Positions 21,208-31,274 of a stretch of DNA of 59,002 nucleotides are shown here, piece after piece (the stretch's first letter is position 1; every line of letters starts with the position of its first letter). The notes beneath the pieces are model-generated. The model ran no database searches. It was not told the origin of the DNA and saw only the letters and a program-made list of their open reading frames with translations. This DNA comes from an uncultured bacterium (GTDB lineage Bacteria; Bacteroidota; Bacteroidia; Chitinophagales; Chitinophagaceae). A program made the translations under genes and the position numbers. The stretch lies in assembly GCA_903826405.1 (NCBI GenBank), contig CAIKEH010000027.1, forward strand, positions 1-59,002, in the 5' to 3' direction.

Positions 21208-22266
21208 TCAATTCAGCATTGACGCCAACTTTTTCTCATTCACGATATATATGAATCCGTCCTTGATCTCGATGAGTTTTTCGTTTCGGAAATCACTGAG
21301 CGTTCGGATCAGTGATTCTGTGGCAGTGCCGGCTATGTTCGCCAGATCCTCCCTGGAAATATGTATGGAGAAAGTCTCCTGACCTGGTCGGCTGTATTTT
21401 TTCTGGAGCGTGATCAGTGAATCCGCCACGCGTTTGCGCAGGGAGTTATAGGCCAGCCCCAGCAACTGATCCTCTTTTTCAGTGACATTATTAGCTAGAA
21501 TGCGAATGAATCTACGGGACACCTCAGGATTCGTATTGATCAGGGACTCGAAATCCTCACGGGGTATGACGGCGATATCGGTATCTTCCAAAGCCTCTGC
21601 GGTTTCCCTGTATATAGAACTTTCTAATAAAGCCACATAACCGAAGAAATCACCTTCCTTATACAGGCCGATGGTAAGCTCCTTACCGTCATCGTTTGAT
21701 TTGAATGTCTTTACCTTGCCTTTGACCACGAAATACAATCTACCAGGATGATTTCCTTCAGAATAGATGAGTTGTTTTTTCCTGTAGTGGTTTATGTTCC
21801 TGTCCTCGGAAAGTGCCTTTAGGGCATCAGTATGTCCAATATCTTTCATGAACGCATGCACGCCATCAACATCCGGAGCATACTCTTTTTTAAGCAATTC
21901 GACCTTTCGGAGTCTTCTCTCGATCGAGTTCAACAGCTCGATATCCGTGAATGGTTTGGTGATATAGTCATCAGCACCCATTTCCATGCCCTTGCGGAAG
22001 TCTGATCGTTCCGCCTTTGCGGTCAGAAAAATGAACGGGATATTCTTCAGGATGGGATTCTTGTTGAGCAGGTGAAGAACCCCATAACCATCCAGTACAG
22101 GCATCATGATGTCGCAGATGATCAGGTCCGGGGTTGATTCAAGTGCCTTTTCCACCCCCACTTTACCATTCTCTGCGGTTGTCACTTGGTAATTGGCCAG
22201 TTCCAGGATTTCGGCGGTGTTCTCCCTGACTTCAAGGTTGTCTTCGATCAGAAGGATCTTATTCAT
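21208..22266 (-). CDS. Response regulator with cNMP-binding-like and Crp-type DNA-binding domains
   Basis: The 352-residue protein has an N-terminal receiver (residues 1-120) with phospho-acceptor D52 (IICDIMMP) and the K of TKPF. A cyclic-nucleotide-binding-like barrel follows (about 140-260), then a Crp/Fnr winged helix (about 270-340, HISREDLANIAGTATESLIRTLSDF). The phosphate-binding cassette has FFGYVALLESSIYRETAEA. The arginine is kept, but the glutamate of the canonical F-G-E is Tyr, so cAMP binding is doubtful. It overlaps the kinase gene by ATGA (22263-22266), so the two are a cognate pair. REC-Crp proteins of this type are found in Bacteroidota. The target genes are unknown. Confidence 0.9.
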   Translation of the reverse strand: MNKILLIEDNLEVRENTAEILELANYQVTTAENGKVGVEKALESTPDLIICDIMMPVLDGYGVLHLLNKNPILKNIPFIFLTAKAERSDFRKGMEMGADDYITKPFTDIELLNSIERRLRKVELLKKEYAPDVDGVHAFMKDIGHTDALKALSEDRNINHYRKKQLIYSEGNHPGRLYFVVKGKVKTFKSNDDGKELTIGLYKEGDFFGYVALLESSIYRETAEALEDTDIAVIPREDFESLINTNPEVSRRFIRILANNVTEKEDQLLGLAYNSLRKRVADSLITLQKKYSRPGQETFSIHISREDLANIAGTATESLIRTLSDFRNEKLIEIKDGFIYIVNEKKLASMLN

Positions 22267-23900
22267 ATTTTAAACGTGATTTTAAACATGGTTCCCATTT
22301 CCAATTCACTGTCTACGGTCATTTTCCCGTTCATCAGTTCCACATATTTGGATACGATATGAAGGCCGAGGCCGGTACCTTGGATATTGGTGGCATTCGT
22401 TGCCCTGAAAAAGCGCTCGAAAAGATGTTTTTTATCTTCCTCGGGGATCCCGATACCATGATCTCTGACGGAAATTAAGATTTGTTTCTGATCCACTTTC
22501 GTTTTCACCTCAATGACACCATTCTCTTTGGAGAATTTGATGGCATTCGAAACCAGGTTGATGATGACATTCCTGACTAGGGAAAGATCCAAATTCACTT
22601 GCACCTTGCCGGAATGGGAGCATTGAATGCTTTGACCCTTCACCAAAATCGGTTTCATTTCATTGCATACCAGTTGAACCTGTTCCTTGATATTGAAGGA
22701 ACTTGGGGTCAACTGTACCCTTCCCTCTTCGATCCTGCCGATGGAAAGGAATTCGTTGAGGATATCCGTGAGGTTGCTCACGGTGGAACGGATACGCTGA
22801 ATATGCTTGTCACGTTTGACCTGCTCCTCTGCTTGTGTGTATTTGGCCACCAAGGAAGCGGAGGACAATATGGTACTCAGCGGAGTACGGAATTCGTGGG
22901 AAGCCATGGAGACAAAGCGTGTCTTCAGGTCGCTCAATTCCTTCTCCTTGCTCAATGCCGTCTCCAATTCGTCACGGGATTTTTTCAGTCCGTCCAGAGC
23001 TTCATTGAGTTGCCTCGTACGCATCTCCACCTTCTTTTCCAGATTCTCATTCAAACTCTCAATGACTCTGTTTATCCTTTCCATCTCCACCTGTTGCTTT
23101 TTCATTTGGTCATGGATATCCTTTCGTCTGGTGATATCCACGACATAGGCAATGGCGAATTGCTCCTCATTTCTTGTATAATGCCCTAGGCTAATCTCAA
23201 CCGGGAATTCGGTACCATCGCCCCTCAATGCGTACAGGGCGATACCTTGACCCATGGGGCGATTCTGGGGATTGTCCATGAACCCCTTACGTTTCCCCTC
23301 ATGCTGAGGCCTGAATCTTGAAGGAATGAGTTTTTGCAAATTCAAGCCGCTCATGGCTCCTGAAGTATATGAAAAAAGCCGCTCTGCAAAAGGATTTGCG
23401 AGCATCACTGTGCCCGAACCATCGATCAGCAGTATCCCCATCGATGCAAATTCAAAAAGAGCTTCAAATCTCTTTTTCTCCTGCTGAAGCCCCACAACCG
23501 CCAAACTCAATTCTTCAACATCGATCACCCTGCGGATCAGGTATTCCGTGCTTTCATACTGGAAACACGTGGTGTGCATGAATCCATGGAAAGTAGACCC
23601 GTCTTTCCTGTAGAATAACATCTCATCCTTCCTGTGTTCCCCGTCCTTGATCAATGTGAGTTTGGCTTGAACGTCCTGATTGATCATGGAATAAGCCTTC
23701 CCGGATGCATAGGCCTCTTCCATTTCTGTAATGGAATCATATCCAAAAAGGGCACACCCTTTGGGGTCGAGGTAGATCAACTTGTCAGTGTCTTTATCCC
23801 AAAGGGAAAGGCATTCATCATCCGTGTTGAATAATGCCCTGATCAAGGATCCGTTAAAGGTGTTTTCCGCTATGCGAGAGATATTTCCCATAAATTCCAC
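22263..23900 (-). CDS. PAS-PAS histidine kinase
   Basis: The 545-residue protein has no membrane segment. A first PAS domain covers about 20-130 and a second about 143-260. A coiled coil follows (about 260-325). The HisKA domain carries the phospho-histidine at H335 (SMASHEFRTPLSTIL). The HATPase domain has an N box (NLVSNAIKFSKENG), a G1 box (VRDHGIGIPEED) and a G2 box (GTGLGLHIVSKY). It is a soluble sensor of an internal signal, perhaps redox, light or a small ligand through PAS. It is the partner of the regulator at 21208. It lies between two carotenoid gene sets, but there is no direct evidence that it controls them. The 434-bp gap to idi shows no gene. Confidence 0.93.
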   Translation of the reverse strand: MEFMGNISRIAENTFNGSLIRALFNTDDECLSLWDKDTDKLIYLDPKGCALFGYDSITEMEEAYASGKAYSMINQDVQAKLTLIKDGEHRKDEMLFYRKDGSTFHGFMHTTCFQYESTEYLIRRVIDVEELSLAVVGLQQEKKRFEALFEFASMGILLIDGSGTVMLANPFAERLFSYTSGAMSGLNLQKLIPSRFRPQHEGKRKGFMDNPQNRPMGQGIALYALRGDGTEFPVEISLGHYTRNEEQFAIAYVVDITRRKDIHDQMKKQQVEMERINRVIESLNENLEKKVEMRTRQLNEALDGLKKSRDELETALSKEKELSDLKTRFVSMASHEFRTPLSTILSSASLVAKYTQAEEQVKRDKHIQRIRSTVSNLTDILNEFLSIGRIEEGRVQLTPSSFNIKEQVQLVCNEMKPILVKGQSIQCSHSGKVQVNLDLSLVRNVIINLVSNAIKFSKENGVIEVKTKVDQKQILISVRDHGIGIPEEDKKHLFERFFRATNATNIQGTGLGLHIVSKYVELMNGKMTVDSELEMGTMFKITFKI

Positions 23901-24334: not shown

Positions 24335-24886
24335 TTAGGCGGTGATCGTCATCCCCTTCCGGATGGGATTGATCAGCAGGTATTCGTGCAGTCTTGGAAG
24401 TGCGATCTTGAACCATTCCGTGTATTTGTGCGGATGTGAGTCCATACTGGAGCGGATCTCCTCCACGTTTTTGTATGTATAATCACTAACCTCTTCTTTA
24501 TTGGGAGAGATCGGGCCATCATAATGACCGATAAAAACATGGTCGTACTCATTTTCAGATAGGCCATTATCGAACATTGCCCGATACGTGAATGAAAATG
24601 CCTTGTGCAACGTGGTTGTGAAACCCAATTCTTCCCTTAGCCTCCGAACTGCAGCTTCCTGGATATCTTCCCCGGGCATCGGATGACTGCAGCAGGCATT
24701 CGTCCATAGGCCCCCGCTATGGTACTTATTCATTGCTCTACGCTGAAGGAGCATCTCCCCTTTGTTGCTAAAGATGAAAATGCTGAAAGCTCGGTGCAAA
24801 AGTGCATTACGGTGTGCTTCCATCTTCCCCATCGTGCCGATCTCAACATCCTGATCATTCACCAGGATAACATCATGTTCTCTCAT
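24335..24886 (-). CDS. idi: Isopentenyl-diphosphate delta-isomerase, type 1
   Basis: The enzyme interconverts IPP and DMAPP, the precursors of GGPP and carotenoids. The 183-residue Nudix-fold protein has the catalytic cysteine C66 in TNACCSHP and the catalytic glutamate in ENEYDHVF, and also the Nudix-like EAAVRRLREELGF. Its length is normal for type 1. It is the last gene of the crtI-crtB-idi set on the minus strand, separated from crtB by 204 bp that carry a pair of direct repeats, so it may have its own promoter. Confidence 0.94.
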   Translation of the reverse strand: MREHDVILVNDQDVEIGTMGKMEAHRNALLHRAFSIFIFSNKGEMLLQRRAMNKYHSGGLWTNACCSHPMPGEDIQEAAVRRLREELGFTTTLHKAFSFTYRAMFDNGLSENEYDHVFIGHYDGPISPNKEEVSDYTYKNVEEIRSSMDSHPHKYTEWFKIALPRLHEYLLINPIRKGMTITA

Positions 24887-25090: not shown

Positions 25091-25942
25091 TCATAGCATA
25101 TTCAACTGAGTACGAACAACTGCTTTGGCTGCGACCCAAGCCTTGGCATAATTGGGTATTCTGATCCTTTCCTCAAGGATCCGTTGAGGATGCATTTTCC
25201 TGATTTTCCGAAATAGACTCAGGTAATATTTATAGGCGAGATAGACCCCGAATCTTGCTTTTAGCGGAAGTTTAGTGATGCCGATATAGGCGTGATGGAA
25301 ATCCTTTGCAATATCCTCCTCTATTTTTTGCTTCATGGCAGGAGTGAAATGCTGGAAATCCACCCCCGGAAAATAAACTCGATTGAGTTGTTGATAATCG
25401 GCCTTCACATCACGAAGAAAATTCACTTTCTGGAATGCAGCACCGAGTGATCGAGCATATGGACGCAGATCTTCGTATTCCTGCTTATTGCCTTCGCAGA
25501 ACACATACAGGCACATGAGGCCGACAACCTCAGCACTGCCATATATGTATTCTTCATACCCCATCTGATCATATTCCGTCTTGTCCAGGTCGAATTCCAT
25601 GCTTCGGAAAAAGGCTTCGATCAATTCATGGTCGATGCCATATTGGTTGACCGTAAGTTGAAAAGAGTGGAGAATGGGATTCAGGCTGATGCCTTCGTTA
25701 ATAGCCGTATATGCATCTGACTTGAATCGGGCGAGAAGGTCTGCTTTGTCATAGCCATGGAACGTATCCACGATCTCGTCCGCGAAACGAACGAGGCCAT
25801 AGATATTGCATATGGGAGTGCGCAGATCCCGATGCAAAAGCCGGATGGCACTGCTGAAAGAAGTACTGTATCTCTCAGTTGTGAGGCGGCTGCATTCTTC
25901 GCTTACGGTATCGTATAAATTCATCATGTCAATAAGGGTCAC
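25091..25942 (-). CDS. crtB: Phytoene synthase
   Basis: CrtB joins two GGPP to phytoene, the first dedicated step of carotenoid synthesis. The 283-residue helical protein has the two aspartate-rich motifs, D55-EIV-D59 and RDVKADYQQLNRVYFP, in the FLRDVKAD context. It also has the family signature YGSAEVVGLMCLYVF. The Mg-dependent enzyme is soluble or loosely membrane-bound. It follows crtI by 89 bp on the same strand. Confidence 0.95.
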   Translation of the reverse strand: MTLIDMMNLYDTVSEECSRLTTERYSTSFSSAIRLLHRDLRTPICNIYGLVRFADEIVDTFHGYDKADLLARFKSDAYTAINEGISLNPILHSFQLTVNQYGIDHELIEAFFRSMEFDLDKTEYDQMGYEEYIYGSAEVVGLMCLYVFCEGNKQEYEDLRPYARSLGAAFQKVNFLRDVKADYQQLNRVYFPGVDFQHFTPAMKQKIEEDIAKDFHHAYIGITKLPLKARFGVYLAYKYYLSLFRKIRKMHPQRILEERIRIPNYAKAWVAAKAVVRTQLNML

Positions 25943-26031: not shown

Positions 26032-27510
26032 TCACGCCCCGAAATATTTAAGAACCTGTCCGGCCACGACTTCGCCACTGATCAGGCTTGGAGGAACACC
26101 TGGTCCCGGCACGGTCAATTGCCCGGTATAAAAGAGGTTATCCACTTTTTTGCTTCGGCATCCGGGCTTGAGAATGGCCGTTTGCATGAGCGTATTCGCC
26201 AACCCATACGCATTGCCCTTGAAGGAATTGTATTCACTGAGGAATTCACTGTATGCGAACGTGCGTTTATATATGATATTACTCCGGATATCCTCGCCCG
26301 TTAGTGCCTTGAATCTATCAAGCATGGTGTTCAGATAATGTTCCCTGATCTCTTCCGTGTCCCCACTGAGTCCGGCCGCGACAGGGATCAGCAGGATCAT
26401 GTTTTCACAACCCTGCGGGGCAAGGCTTTCGTCTGTGATAGAGGGAACGCTCACGTAGAAGAGTGGAGCTTTGGGCCAGGACTTGCTGACATAGATCTCC
26501 TGGGCATGAGCTTCGAATGGCGAATCAAAAAAGAGGGAATGATGAGGGACATCTTTCAATTTACGGTCAAGACCTATGTAGTAGAGCAGGCAACTAGGGG
26601 CAAGCACTTTCTTGTCCCAATAGGATTCGGAATAACTTCGGTATTTCTTCTCCAGCAATTTCGCTTCGATGAAATGGTAGTCTGCGCCACCTATAACGAC
26701 GTCCGCTTCAAAAATTTGTCCGGAGCTGGTCACGACCTCATTGGCCTTGTTGCCCTTGATGCGAATCTCATTTACATCATGGCCGTACAGGAATTGTGCT
26801 CCCTGTTCCTCGGCGAGTTTGACCATGGCCTCAACAATACTGTACATGCCACCTTTCGGGAACCAGGTGCCTAATTTGATGTCTGCATAATTCATCAGGC
26901 TGTACAGTGCTGGTGTGTTCTCAGGAAGTGCCCCCAGGAATAGTACCGGGAATTCCATCAATTGTCTAAGCCTGGGGTGCTTGAAATATTTTTGGATGTG
27001 GGCTTGAATGGAGTTGAATACTTCCAATTTGAAGAGACCCTTGAATAGATCCAAGTCGATGAATTCCGTTATCGACTGCCCTGGCTTGAAAACCAATTTA
27101 TTGATACCTACACGGTACTTGTATTCCGCACCTGCCAGAAATTGATCGAGTTTATCCCCTGACCCCGCTTCGATGGATTCGAATAATGCCCGGAATGCTG
27201 AATAGTCCGCGGGAATGTCCATGGGGCCGTCATCCCAATAGATCCTGTAGGAGGGATCCAACCTGATCAGTTCATAATAATCACTCACTTTCCGACCGAA
27301 CTGCGCGAAGAATCGCTCAAACACATCAGGCATCCAGTACCAGCTGGGGCCCATATCGAAAGTAAAACCATCCGCCACCAGTTTTCTTGCCCTTCCCCCT
27401 GGGGTATCGTGCTTTTCGAGTACCACAGTTTCCCAGCCTGCTTTTGCCATGAAGGCAGCAGCAGACATCCCGGCAAAGCCGCTACCTATGATGATGACTT
27501 TTTTTCCCAA
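26032..27510 (-). CDS. crtI: Phytoene desaturase (CrtI type)
   Basis: CrtI takes phytoene to lycopene with four desaturations using FAD. The 492-residue protein has an N-terminal dinucleotide-binding motif (VIIIGSGFAGMSAAAFMAKAG) and the linked GGRARKLVADGFTFDMGPSWYWMP. The C-terminal signature PGPGVPPSLISGEVVAGQVL is typical of the family. The length is normal. It starts only 10 bp after the stop of the ECF sigma gene, so the two are clearly cotranscribed, which ties carotenoid synthesis to this sigma factor. Confidence 0.96.
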   Translation of the reverse strand: MGKKVIIIGSGFAGMSAAAFMAKAGWETVVLEKHDTPGGRARKLVADGFTFDMGPSWYWMPDVFERFFAQFGRKVSDYYELIRLDPSYRIYWDDGPMDIPADYSAFRALFESIEAGSGDKLDQFLAGAEYKYRVGINKLVFKPGQSITEFIDLDLFKGLFKLEVFNSIQAHIQKYFKHPRLRQLMEFPVLFLGALPENTPALYSLMNYADIKLGTWFPKGGMYSIVEAMVKLAEEQGAQFLYGHDVNEIRIKGNKANEVVTSSGQIFEADVVIGGADYHFIEAKLLEKKYRSYSESYWDKKVLAPSCLLYYIGLDRKLKDVPHHSLFFDSPFEAHAQEIYVSKSWPKAPLFYVSVPSITDESLAPQGCENMILLIPVAAGLSGDTEEIREHYLNTMLDRFKALTGEDIRSNIIYKRTFAYSEFLSEYNSFKGNAYGLANTLMQTAILKPGCRSKKVDNLFYTGQLTVPGPGVPPSLISGEVVAGQVLKYFGA

Positions 27511-27520
27511 GAAATTCGTT

Positions 27521-28021
27521 TTAGTACCGGCTGATCTGTGATTTCAGCAATCGGCGGGCAAAATGTATCCTGCTTTTGATGGTACCGAGAGGTTCACTGA
27601 GCATGTCTGCGATCTCATGGTACTTATAGCCCTCAAAATACAACAAGAATGGGTTTTTGAAAATTGCGGGAAGTCCGTGCATGGCCGCATAGATCTCTTT
27701 CAAGGTCAGATTCATCTCGGCGGAATTGGACGTGGTGGCTTGACCGTGGTTCAGAAGGAAATCATTGGGGGTGCTGTCGAATATCGTCTGCTGCTTCATC
27801 CTCCTGCGGTAATTATTGATGAAAATGTTCCGCATTATGGTATAAAGCCATGCTTTGATATTGGTACCTGAATTGTATTTTTCCTGATTGGCCAAGGCCC
27901 TGAACATGGTTTCCTGCAACAGGTCTTTAGCCACTTCCTGATCCTTGGTCAACGTGATGGCGAACGGCTTCAGGAAATCTGCATTGGCGATCAGCATCTG
28001 GTCGAATTCTTGGTGTGACAT
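27521..28021 (-). CDS. ECF-type RNA polymerase sigma factor
   Basis: The start at ATG 28021 (MSHQEFDQMLIANADFLKPFA) gives 166 residues, a normal ECF length; an in-frame ATG at 28078 would add 19 residues across an inverted repeat. Region 2 contains LTKDQEVAKDLLQETMFRALANQ and IKAWLYTIMRNIFINNYRR. Region 4 contains GYKYHEIADMLSEPLGTIKSRIHFARRLL, the helix-turn-helix for the -35 element. No anti-sigma gene lies next to it; instead crtI follows within 10 bp and a CarH-like repressor lies upstream. In Myxococcus a light-controlled ECF factor (CarQ) also serves carotenoid genes, and a similar role is inferred here. Confidence 0.93.
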   Translation of the reverse strand: MSHQEFDQMLIANADFLKPFAITLTKDQEVAKDLLQETMFRALANQEKYNSGTNIKAWLYTIMRNIFINNYRRRMKQQTIFDSTPNDFLLNHGQATTSNSAEMNLTLKEIYAAMHGLPAIFKNPFLLYFEGYKYHEIADMLSEPLGTIKSRIHFARRLLKSQISRY

Positions 28022-28027
28022 GCTATT

Positions 28028-28060
28028 TTGTTTAAACGTGGATATGACGAATTTAAACAA
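28028..28060. promoter_or_regulatory. Inverted repeat in front of the sigma factor gene
   Basis: TTGTTTAAA (28028-28036) and TTTAAACAA (28052-28060) form a perfect 9-bp inverted repeat with a 15-bp spacer, just before the sigma gene start at 28021. It could be an operator or mRNA structure. A related TTAAACAA lies at 28108-28115. Confidence 0.5.
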
Positions 28061-28112
28061 TTCCCCTAATCCACACATTGTTTTTGTGTAATATTTTCGT
28101 CACATTATTAAA

Positions 28113-28126
28113 CAAAATATATTTTG
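28113..28126. promoter_or_regulatory. Perfect 14-bp palindrome upstream of the sigma-crtI unit
   Basis: CAAAATATATTTTG is its own reverse complement. It lies in the AT-rich 374-bp gap between the CarH-like gene and the sigma gene, about 90 bp before the sigma start, where a promoter is expected. It is a good candidate site for a dimeric regulator, such as the CarH-like protein encoded next door. The rest of the gap up to 28452 shows no gene. Confidence 0.45.
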
Positions 28127-28452: not shown

Positions 28453-29334
28453 TCAATGGATGGAAGAAATGAATTCCATCACTTCTTGCAAAGATCTTTT
28501 GAAATGAAAGCGTGGGGGGATCTTCTGCTCATAGGAACTGGCCAATCGACCGGATATGATCAAAGGTGTTTCCCCGAATTTTCGGGAGGCCTGAAGCAGG
28601 AACTTGTCGAAGTTGAATCCGTGTGAAACGGAGGTGAGGTGGGTATATAAATAATCTGGTTTCTTGAGATTGATGACATACTCTACGTCATTGGTTGGCA
28701 CGTTTGCACCCAGATAAAGAGTGCTTATTCCCCTGTTGCGCAAGAGGTAATTCATATAAAGAAGACCCAGTTCATGGTATTCGCCTTCCGGCAGGAAGAG
28801 CAGTACATTTTGCTTTGTACTGATCCGGGAAACTATATTCTGTATGCCTACGATGAGTTTTTGTCTGATGATGTTGGTCACCAGATGTTCCTGGGCCGGA
28901 TTGATGTGGTCGGTTATCCATAGCATTCCTATCCTTTCCATGAATGGGAAGATGATCTGGCTGATGGATTTCTCTATGCCTTTTGACTTGATATAGTCGT
29001 CCAGTATGTCCTCAAAGAGATCCAGATCCAGATCGATCATGTACTGGACCAGATCATTGATTATCCTGTCCGTCTGGGATTCAGGATTGGACAGGGACAA
29101 AATCTTCTCCCGAATGTCATTCTCGTTCATCCTGTCGATATGCGAGATCTTGTAGCCGTATTTGTTGAGCAGGGCTATATTGAGGATCTTCTTTAGCTCC
29201 TCGCTATTGTAATAACGTATGTTGGTTTGGGTTCGCCGGGGTTTCAGGAAATTATAGCGTTGTTCCCAAATGCGTATGGTATGGGCTTTGACGCCGGTGA
29301 GATTTTCAAGATCCTTTATGGTATAGGTGTTCAC
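28453..29334 (-). CDS. CarH-like MerR-family repressor with B12-binding photosensor domain
   Basis: The 293-residue protein has a MerR-type winged helix (residues 3-70, YTIKDLENLTGVKAHTIRIWEQRY). A four-helix cap and a Rossmann-type cobalamin domain follow. The cap has the CarH signature W139-x9-E149-H150. The cobalamin domain has E185-Y-H187-E-L-G190, in which H187 would be the lower axial ligand. In characterised CarH proteins these residues bind adenosylcobalamin: the dark tetramer represses carotenoid genes and light breaks it. The gene lies upstream of the sigma-crtI-crtB unit on the same strand, which fits this role well. Light response is inferred and not shown. A CarA-like, B12-dependent but light-independent role is the alternative. 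Confidence 0.88.
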   Translation of the reverse strand: MNTYTIKDLENLTGVKAHTIRIWEQRYNFLKPRRTQTNIRYYNSEELKKILNIALLNKYGYKISHIDRMNENDIREKILSLSNPESQTDRIINDLVQYMIDLDLDLFEDILDDYIKSKGIEKSISQIIFPFMERIGMLWITDHINPAQEHLVTNIIRQKLIVGIQNIVSRISTKQNVLLFLPEGEYHELGLLYMNYLLRNRGISTLYLGANVPTNDVEYVINLKKPDYLYTHLTSVSHGFNFDKFLLQASRKFGETPLIISGRLASSYEQKIPPRFHFKRSLQEVMEFISSIH

Positions 29335-29493
29335 ATCACCAATTTGAAGAATAACAAGATACCAGCATGAATGTTTGATTCAAGCGGCCATTAATTCACG
29401 ATCATCAGACAATTTAGATAAATAATATTACAAATAATTACAAATCAATTACTTGCAAATTGTACAGGGAAAATAAAGTAAGTGGGAAGTCTA

Positions 29494-30234: not shown

Positions 30235-30247
30235 GGGTTGAATTACG

Positions 30248-30335
30248 ATTAATGAATTAGTGGATTAGTGGATTAACGAATTAATGAATTAGTGGATTAG
30301 TGGATTAATGGATTAATGAATTAGCGGATAAGCAA
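30248..30335. repeat. Tandem 8-bp repeat (11 units) at the end of fcl
   Basis: Eleven consecutive octamers follow the pattern ATTARYGR: ATTAATGA, ATTAGTGG twice, ATTAACGA, then ATTAATGA, ATTAGTGG twice, ATTAATGG, then ATTAATGA, ATTAGCGG and ATAAGCAA. There is a higher-order period of four units (32 bp). Two inverse octamers (ATCCGTTA) follow at 30336-30351, inside the last codons of fcl. The array covers the whole gap between fcl and the phosphatase gene and extends over the fcl stop codon. Confidence 0.9.
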
Positions 30336-31274
30336 ATCCGTTAATCCGTTAATCTTATATCCCTCATACACTTTCCTGATCCCCTCTTCAAGTCCGATCT
30401 TATGTTTCCACCCTAGTCCATGAAGTTTGGAAACGTCCATGAGCTTGCGGGGGGTACCATCGGGTTTGGAAGTGTCATTGATCAGCTCGCCTTCGTATCC
30501 TACGATTTTTTTGATCATCAAAGCCAGTTCACCGATGGCGATATCCTCACCGGTGCCAATGTTCACCAGGCCCTCCTCGTCGTAATGTTGCATGAGGTGG
30601 AAACAGGCAGCTGCTAAATCATCGGCATGCAGGAATTCCCTCCTGGGCGTTCCCGAGCCCCAAATGGTAACGGATGGGTCAGAGCCAAGCTTGGCTTCAT
30701 GGAATTTACGGATGAGTGCGGGAAGAACGTGTGAACTATTCAGATCATAGTTATCGTTCGGCCCGTACAGGTTAGTGGGCATGACCGATATAAAGTGGCA
30801 TCCATACTGGGAACGATAAGCATCACATAGTTTGATACCCGCTATCTTGGCAACAGCATAAGGTTCATTGGTATACTCGAGTGGCCCGGTGAGTAGATAA
30901 TCCTCCTTCAATGGCTGGGGCGCCATCTTGGGATAAATGCAGGACGACCCCAGGAACATCAGTTTTTTGACTCCGTTCAGATAGGCCTGATGGATGACAT
31001 TGTTCTGGATCATCAGGTTCTCATACAGGAACTCGCCACGTAAAGTGTTGTTGGCCAGAATGCCTCCTACTTTAGCAGCTGCCAGAAATACATGATCGGG
31101 TTTCTCAAAAGCAAAAAAATCAGCCACCATGTGCTGATCGCGCAGATCCAATTCTTTTGACGTGCGAAGTACCAGATTGGTGAATCCCTCTGATTCCAAT
31201 TTCCTTAGGATAGCAGAGCCCACCATACCTCGGTGTCCGGCTATGTATATCTTTTCGTTTAGGTTCATATCCAT
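30321..31274 (-). CDS. fcl: GDP-L-fucose synthase
   Basis: The enzyme is the epimerase/reductase that makes GDP-L-fucose from GDP-4-keto-6-deoxymannose. The 317-residue SDR protein has the NADP motif [13 protein letters not shown] and the catalytic S and Y-x3-K in [10 protein letters not shown] and [11 protein letters not shown]. The family signature [10 protein letters not shown] is present. It lies 29 bp after gmd, forming the usual gmd-fcl pair that supplies fucose to the polysaccharide. Its last codons are part of the octamer repeat. Confidence 0.95.

Follow-up and report, generated by a model that had tools for sequence, protein, structure and literature searches.

CarH of Thermus thermophilus (TtCarH/LitR; PDB 5C8D/E/F, 8C31-8C37) has His132 directly after the tryptophan (Trp) of its adenosyl cap, where it serves as upper ligand of the bis-His light state, and 11-base-pair (bp) direct repeats, three of them at the Thermus promoter. 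The need for bis-His ligation in CarH release is disputed: one report has the H132A variant disassembling in light, and a later one has it mostly tetrameric (as summarized in PMC10442372). The same paper puts the absorbance peak of the bis-His state near 359 nm and that of the hydroxo state near 352 nm. PMC9304148 describes a His after Trp for "many" myxobacterial CarH proteins, and thus the residue is not universal in CarH. CtMerR of Chloracidobacterium thermophilum (8JBS/8JBT) is reported to have Arg at this position. In Streptomyces coelicolor a CarH/LitR regulator controls the gene of an extracytoplasmic function (ECF) sigma factor: according to PMC12705666, light-activated LitR promotes the transcription of litS, and sigma-LitS in turn transcribes crtE, acting at its promoter. 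Myxococcus likewise combines MerR-B12 paralogues (CarA and CarH), an ECF sigma factor (CarQ) and carotenoid genes; according to PMC8156234 and PMC9304148, CarQ has the anti-sigma factor CarR, and CarA lacks the Trp of the Wx9EH motif. Here we analyzed a window of 59,002 bases, one contig (CAIKEH010000027.1) of a 3.59 Mb genome from a Chitinophagaceae-like bacterium, in which the gene at 28453-29334 (merR) probably encodes a light-sensing, vitamin B12-based repressor.

On the strength of sequence comparisons, we consider it likely that this protein is a Bacteroidota variant of CarH/LitR whose adenosylcobalamin (AdoCbl) form would repress an ECF-crtI-crtB unit in the dark and release it in light without bis-His ligation. 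The protein is 26% identical to TtCarH and has Ile in the slot of His132; its putative operator consists of inverted dyads instead of direct repeats, and an ECF sigma gene is its neighbor and likely target. It differs from CtMerR in having Ile rather than Arg after the Trp and a carotenoid operon alongside. The first-pass annotation had suggested that the layered CarH/ECF circuit is a different one; this layer is already known from LitR-LitS (PMC12705666), as the fold and pocket are from CarH, and the comparison with that cascade rests on the adjacency of ECF and merR in 69/80 named loci. The literature searched, which covered few subscription papers, yielded no report of the missing bis-His residue in the 80 sequences, of the inverted operator or of the regulon, and no Bacteroidota CarH/LitR operator or CarH-ECF pair was recognized in it. 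In Chryseobacterium lacus, carotenoids are reported as light-induced and the regulator is called unknown (PMC7064467).

The genes at the locus and the residues in question are as follows.

28453..29334, minus strand: merR-B12 regulator of the CarH/LitR type, 293 amino acids, GTG start (open reading frame, Pfam and motifs); pocket residues G136, W139, E149, H150, E185, H187, G209 and P213
28915-28917, within this gene: codon of I140, the slot of the bis-His histidine
27521..28021, minus strand: ECF sigma factor, 166 amino acids counted from the revised ATG at 28021
26032..27510, minus strand: crtI, CrtID phytoene desaturase (NCBIfam NF058655, 737.9 bits against a cut-off of 640)
25091..25942, minus strand: crtB, phytoene synthase (SQS_PSY)
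24335..24886, minus strand: idi, isopentenyl-diphosphate isomerase (IPP isomerase match)

The minus-strand order is thus merR-B12, ECF sigma, crtI, crtB and idi. The open reading frame coordinates bear out the regulator gene, the adjacent sigma factor and the 10 bp from the ECF stop to the crtI start noted in the first-pass annotation, to which crtB and idi can be added. Its remark that the sigma factor lacks a neighboring anti-sigma gene also stands: the merR-ECF and ECF-crtI gaps hold no gene, so no anti-sigma gene lies between merR and crtI, and none was seen at the locus (the rest of the genome was not searched). The ECF gene probably starts at ATG 28021 rather than 28078, because the latter would place a conserved operator within the gene.

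Pfam matched the 293-residue protein to MerR_1 (E 1.3e-14) and B12-binding_2 (E 4.7e-9), both above the cut-offs, and the protein has the MerR DNA-binding, B12-type four-helix and Rossmann parts of CarH/LitR in the broad sense. The predicted fold supports this assignment (the fold ranking by VIA-align was restricted to families on Foldseek's own list). An adenosyltransferase and a cobalamin riboswitch were found that could account for AdoCbl supply. Residue conservation was counted over 80 aligned sequences. The Wx9EH adenosyl cap is present (W139 and E149 in 80/80, H150 in 79/80), and loss of its Trp, the hallmark of B12-independent CarA, was seen in none. The lower-ligand motif D/ExHx2G/P is also present and reads EYHELG in the window; E185 and H187 are kept in 80/80, and the final position is Gly in 63/80, Ser in 14 and Ala in 3. 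By eye, the SignatureFinder pattern of light-responsive B12 proteins (GxxW, EH, GxxH, GxxxP) could be placed at G136-W139, E149-H150, G184-H187 and G209-P213, with G136 and G209 kept in 80/80, P213 in 78/80 and G184 in 65/80. The earlier statement that all B12-binding signatures are kept therefore holds for W139-x9-E149-H150 and E185-x-H187-x2-G190 and fails at Ile140, His232 and Ser261. The classic SxT/V and GG motif is absent, as the window protein has HLT and SG: H232 (56/80) stands at the Ser of SxT, followed by T234 (73/80), and Ser261 replaces the first Gly of GG before G262 (80/80). Ile140 follows W139 where Thermus CarH has His132, and His was found there in 0/80, so the protein is not CarH in the strict Thermus sense and its light state must arise by another route.

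The putative operator is an inverted pair, TGTTTA-N18/19-TAAACA, ahead of the ECF gene. Across 95 regions preceding ECF we counted 140 exact dyads, 2 of them at other spacings (11 and 12), compared with 0.22 per shuffled set. Once two duplicates were removed (window included), at least one exact dyad preceded ECF in 87/93 loci and at least two in 44/93, with half-sites usually starting at about -92, -68, -37 and -13 relative to the ECF ATG. The window holds two such elements:

28029..28059, minus strand: putative operator dyad 2, exact TGTTTA-N19-TAAACA, immediately before the revised start of ECF
28085..28114, minus strand: putative operator dyad 1, TGTTTA-N18-TACACA

The window has no exact dyad other than dyad 2 (100 shuffles gave 0). 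Dyad 1 departs once from TAAACA and still matches TnnACA. PMC9304148 gives the CarH repeat motif as nnnnTnnACAn, which TAAACA fits, and the TnnACA core was seen three times in 11-bp steps before Thermus carH. Among half-sites with a single mismatch, 17/18 retained the ACA core, vs. 19/28 at control spacings. Since both window dyads fit TnnACA, the letters of the putative operator are those of CarH, but the arrangement is not: the Thermus/Bacillus operator has tandem 11-bp nnnnTnnACAn direct repeats, and the half-sites here are inverted and 24-25 bp apart. Together with Ile140, this makes a CarH of the textbook kind, with the bis-His light state that the first-pass annotation had implied, highly improbable; the earlier interpretation is supported in part overall.

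In a logo of the ECF upstream regions, TA-N2-TTTR extends over part of the left half-site of dyad 2 and resembles TAnnTTTG, the -7 element of Bacteroidota. In the window, TAAATTCG at 28048..28055 (minus strand), a putative -7 promoter element, has one mismatch to TAnnTTTG and overlaps the same half-site. An overlap with the putative -7 element and the start region is what steric repression predicts, and it argues against LitR-like activation, in which the ECF promoter would be switched on by the light form rather than blocked by the dark form. The light-dependent promotion of litS by LitR provides a precedent for activation, but PMC12705666 also mentions a repressor effect of B12 added in the dark, and we regard this alternative as quite improbable.

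Two other candidate arrangements upstream of merR were rejected. Two copies of ATTACAAAT lie 10 bp apart at 29427-29445 and could have formed an operator of 11-bp direct repeats; no counterpart was seen in the merR upstream regions of 14 relatives. Autoregulation of the window merR through the dyad is unsupported, as an exact dyad lies upstream of merR in 13/110 loci; at divergent loci such as L012/L045 and L080 this is the shared ECF region.

The occurrence of the dyad follows that of merR. A strict dyad was found in 71 of 109 genomes of the order, and merR was present in 71/71 of these; it was found in 0/26 merR-less genomes, 5 of which have weak merR matches (E 2.6e-5 to 8.3e-4) and 9 of which were assigned from a count rather than a listing. 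The co-occurrence gave a Fisher value of 3e-16 with kinship ignored. The strict pattern gave 117 forward and 113 reverse matches in the 109 genomes vs. 5 and 8 in controls; a looser pattern gave many matches in 60 family genomes, often not above control, and the regulon counts below use the strict one. In eight genomes merR is not beside ECF, and an exact dyad stood upstream of the best ECF match in 6/8 of them (8/8 with up to one mismatch per half), although in L163 the dyad sits at the unusual position -269, and identity is as low as 40-48% for the ECF matches of L161-L165. Conversely, ECF orthologues (63-72%) in four genomes picked for lacking merR, an unbiased choice (G107, G130, G168 and G177), had an exact dyad in 0/4; G222, G224, G204 and G239 had been picked as dyad-free. 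The G130 orthologue has a dyad with one mismatch per half at -43, and L153 (genome G180, ECF 42% identity) has none. Hand arithmetic for 87/93 vs. 0/4, without G222, gave p of about 6e-5. Taken together, the genome co-occurrence, the 6/8 trans sites and the 0/4 merR-less orthologues suggest that the dyad is read by the MerR protein. If it were instead bound by the ECF factor itself or by a different regulator, merR would merely co-travel with it. The neglect of kinship and the 12 merR genomes without a strict dyad favor this explanation, but the trans sites, the dyad-free ECF orthologues and the match of the half-site to the CarH motif make it very improbable.

Away from merR, 43 strict sites in 40 stretches were picked by coordinates among the matches listed, and one of us sorted their targets. 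They were crtI/crtB (6, one of them merR-crtI-crtB), ECF (6), folE or queD-folE (4), rhodopsin (1), lipocalin (2), FAS1 (4) and DUF4397 (11); the site of L258 turned out to be at merR itself. Pfam confirmed the 11 DUF4397, 4 FAS1, 2 lipocalins and the rhodopsin, as well as L253 crtB, L268 ECF and L258 merR, and the remaining crt, ECF and fol labels come from BLAST against our own references. The sites are not all independent: L240/L241 look like copies on two contigs of a single genome, L269-L271 belong to one genus, and so do L262/L265. Under the looser pattern only, sites were found at a photolyase (L202), the Algoriphagus rhodopsin (L198) and the FAS1 genes of L197/L200/L204. In Algoriphagus mannitolivorans (G253, the genome of L089) such a dyad precedes rhodopsin-crtY, and the third gene behind it is presumably blh-like (by eye). 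Looser-pattern dyads lie between queD-folE and SOUL-photolyase in G200, and FAS1 genes follow them in G253, G249 and G227. FAS1 (fasciclin) genes were seen just downstream of a dyad in L247, L250, L260, L274, L197, L200 and L204, and DUF4397 genes in L245, L252, L255, L259, L261, L265, L266, L267, L269, L270 and L271; 6/11 DUF4397 proteins have Por_Secre_tail. It is possible that FAS1 and DUF4397 proteins are light-controlled surface proteins. In two genomes, at L199:2852 (looser pattern only) and L207:2490, a dyad separates the gene of a START-like protein (in L207 a Pfam START_2 match) from a sigma gene that resembles rpoD by eye.

We tentatively propose, as something just short of an even chance, a Bacteroidota B12 light regulon in which a CarH-like repressor without bis-His ligation uses a pair of inverted TnnACA dyads to control ECF-crt, rhodopsin, folE/queD, photolyase, lipocalin and a further two kinds of protein that look secreted (FAS1 and DUF4397). 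In Pseudomonas, class II LitR is reported to have photolyase and folE among its light-induced genes (PMC9758184), and the regulon therefore supports light as the signal apart from the photoreceptor argument.

Several points weigh against the proposed repressor and its regulon. The Rossmann B12-binding model PF02310 is weak (21.3 bits vs. a cut-off of 32.1), and the CarH equivalog NF052513 scores 109.6-109.9 bits vs. a cut-off of 400, which was passed by none of 14 control genomes, Thermus composti included. The co-occurrence test, blind to kinship, draws 9/26 merR-less genomes from one family (f19), with a further 5/26 from family f4, and 12/83 merR genomes have no strict dyad. The looser pattern occurs in merR-less G107 (1), G177 (3) and G180 (4), with 2, 1 and 2 in the controls. 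The targets of 9/43 strict sites fall outside the classes above or are unclear (HSP90, a TonB receptor, further secreted proteins and sites within open reading frames), and the commonest target class, DUF4397 (11/43), is without a known link to light. The window's own genome has one convincing site, at the ECF operon; its second exact dyad (C38:6212) was taken as chance because it lies near a contig end beside cold-shock/RNA-binding-like genes (by eye) and the reversed-pattern control gave 1 match. Finally, since TtCarH H132A is described as mostly tetrameric in light (PMC10442372), a protein lacking that His might not release DNA. This last point, the bis-His residue missing in 80/80 and the degenerate SxT and GG motifs would also suit a sensor of B12 status or redox, which represses with AdoCbl and releases when AdoCbl is short, light being incidental. 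Such a sensor is unlikely, given that the likely regulon includes rhodopsin, photolyase, folE, lipocalin and carotenoid genes and that CtMerR, with Arg at the position, is reported still to shed its adenosyl group in light (PMC11796333).

In the favored light-released repressor, AdoCbl-bound MerR would sit in the dark on four TnnACA half-sites, forming two inverted dyads over the putative ECF-crtI-crtB(-idi) promoter, and block RNA polymerase. The spacing of 24-25 bp between inverted half-sites might accommodate two dimers or one tetramer. In light, the Co-C bond would break and the protein would leave the DNA, the light state being reached via a Glu/water contact of the kind reported for CtMerR or perhaps, within most Chitinophagaceae rows alone, with His143 as ligand. 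Synthesis of the ECF factor and of the carotenoid enzymes would follow, and the ECF factor, governed by its expression where no anti-sigma gene is near, may go on to transcribe further genes. As the light state of this regulon's repressor would work without bis-His ligation, natural variants could decide whether that ligation is needed: a natural clade that lacks the His and is linked through its operator to carotenoid genes and other light genes opens this question to testing. The dyad also provides a DNA signature for predicting which rhodopsin, photolyase and pigment genes of Bacteroidota are under B12/light control, FAS1 and DUF4397 proteins are pointed to as possible parts of a light response, and optogenetics may gain a repressor with a different operator.

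Relatives of merR at E<=0.001 were found in 163 of 198 genomes of the order; we sorted the matches as 151 strong and 12 weak (E above 1e-13). Neighborhoods were counted in the best 80 of at least 578 named loci, some on short contigs. ECF lies within 3.5 kb of merR in 69/80, and ECF, crtI and crtB together in 53/80; at 15 loci ECF is present and crtI or crtB is not nearby, in a few cases with contig ends there (e.g., L072, L084). The ECF-crtI alignment gap was 0-162 bp in the 55 loci having both (window included). By these counts the arrangement appears commoner than chance. Among the named matches listed, from which records very near the window were possibly left out, the window merR is 66-67% identical to records labeled Ferruginibacter and 67% to one labeled Chitinophaga. 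At L201:2598-5503 (genome G200), a MerR relative stands directly before crtI-crtB with no ECF between and with dyads near its start; some lineages may manage without the ECF layer. The MerR relative of a Persicobacter plasmid (L156:5001-5897) keeps the W and E and has lost two His residues, that of EH and that of the lower ligand, with a loose dyad about 290 bp upstream; it is perhaps a CarA-like, B12-free form in Bacteroidota.

By eye, a PAS histidine kinase and a response regulator with a CRP-like domain lie on the same strand beyond idi (21208-23900). Upstream of merR, between CpsB-like and nucleotide-sugar genes, 30240-30345 holds AT-rich, imperfect short repeats that are GATTAATGAATTAGTGG-like, also judged by eye.
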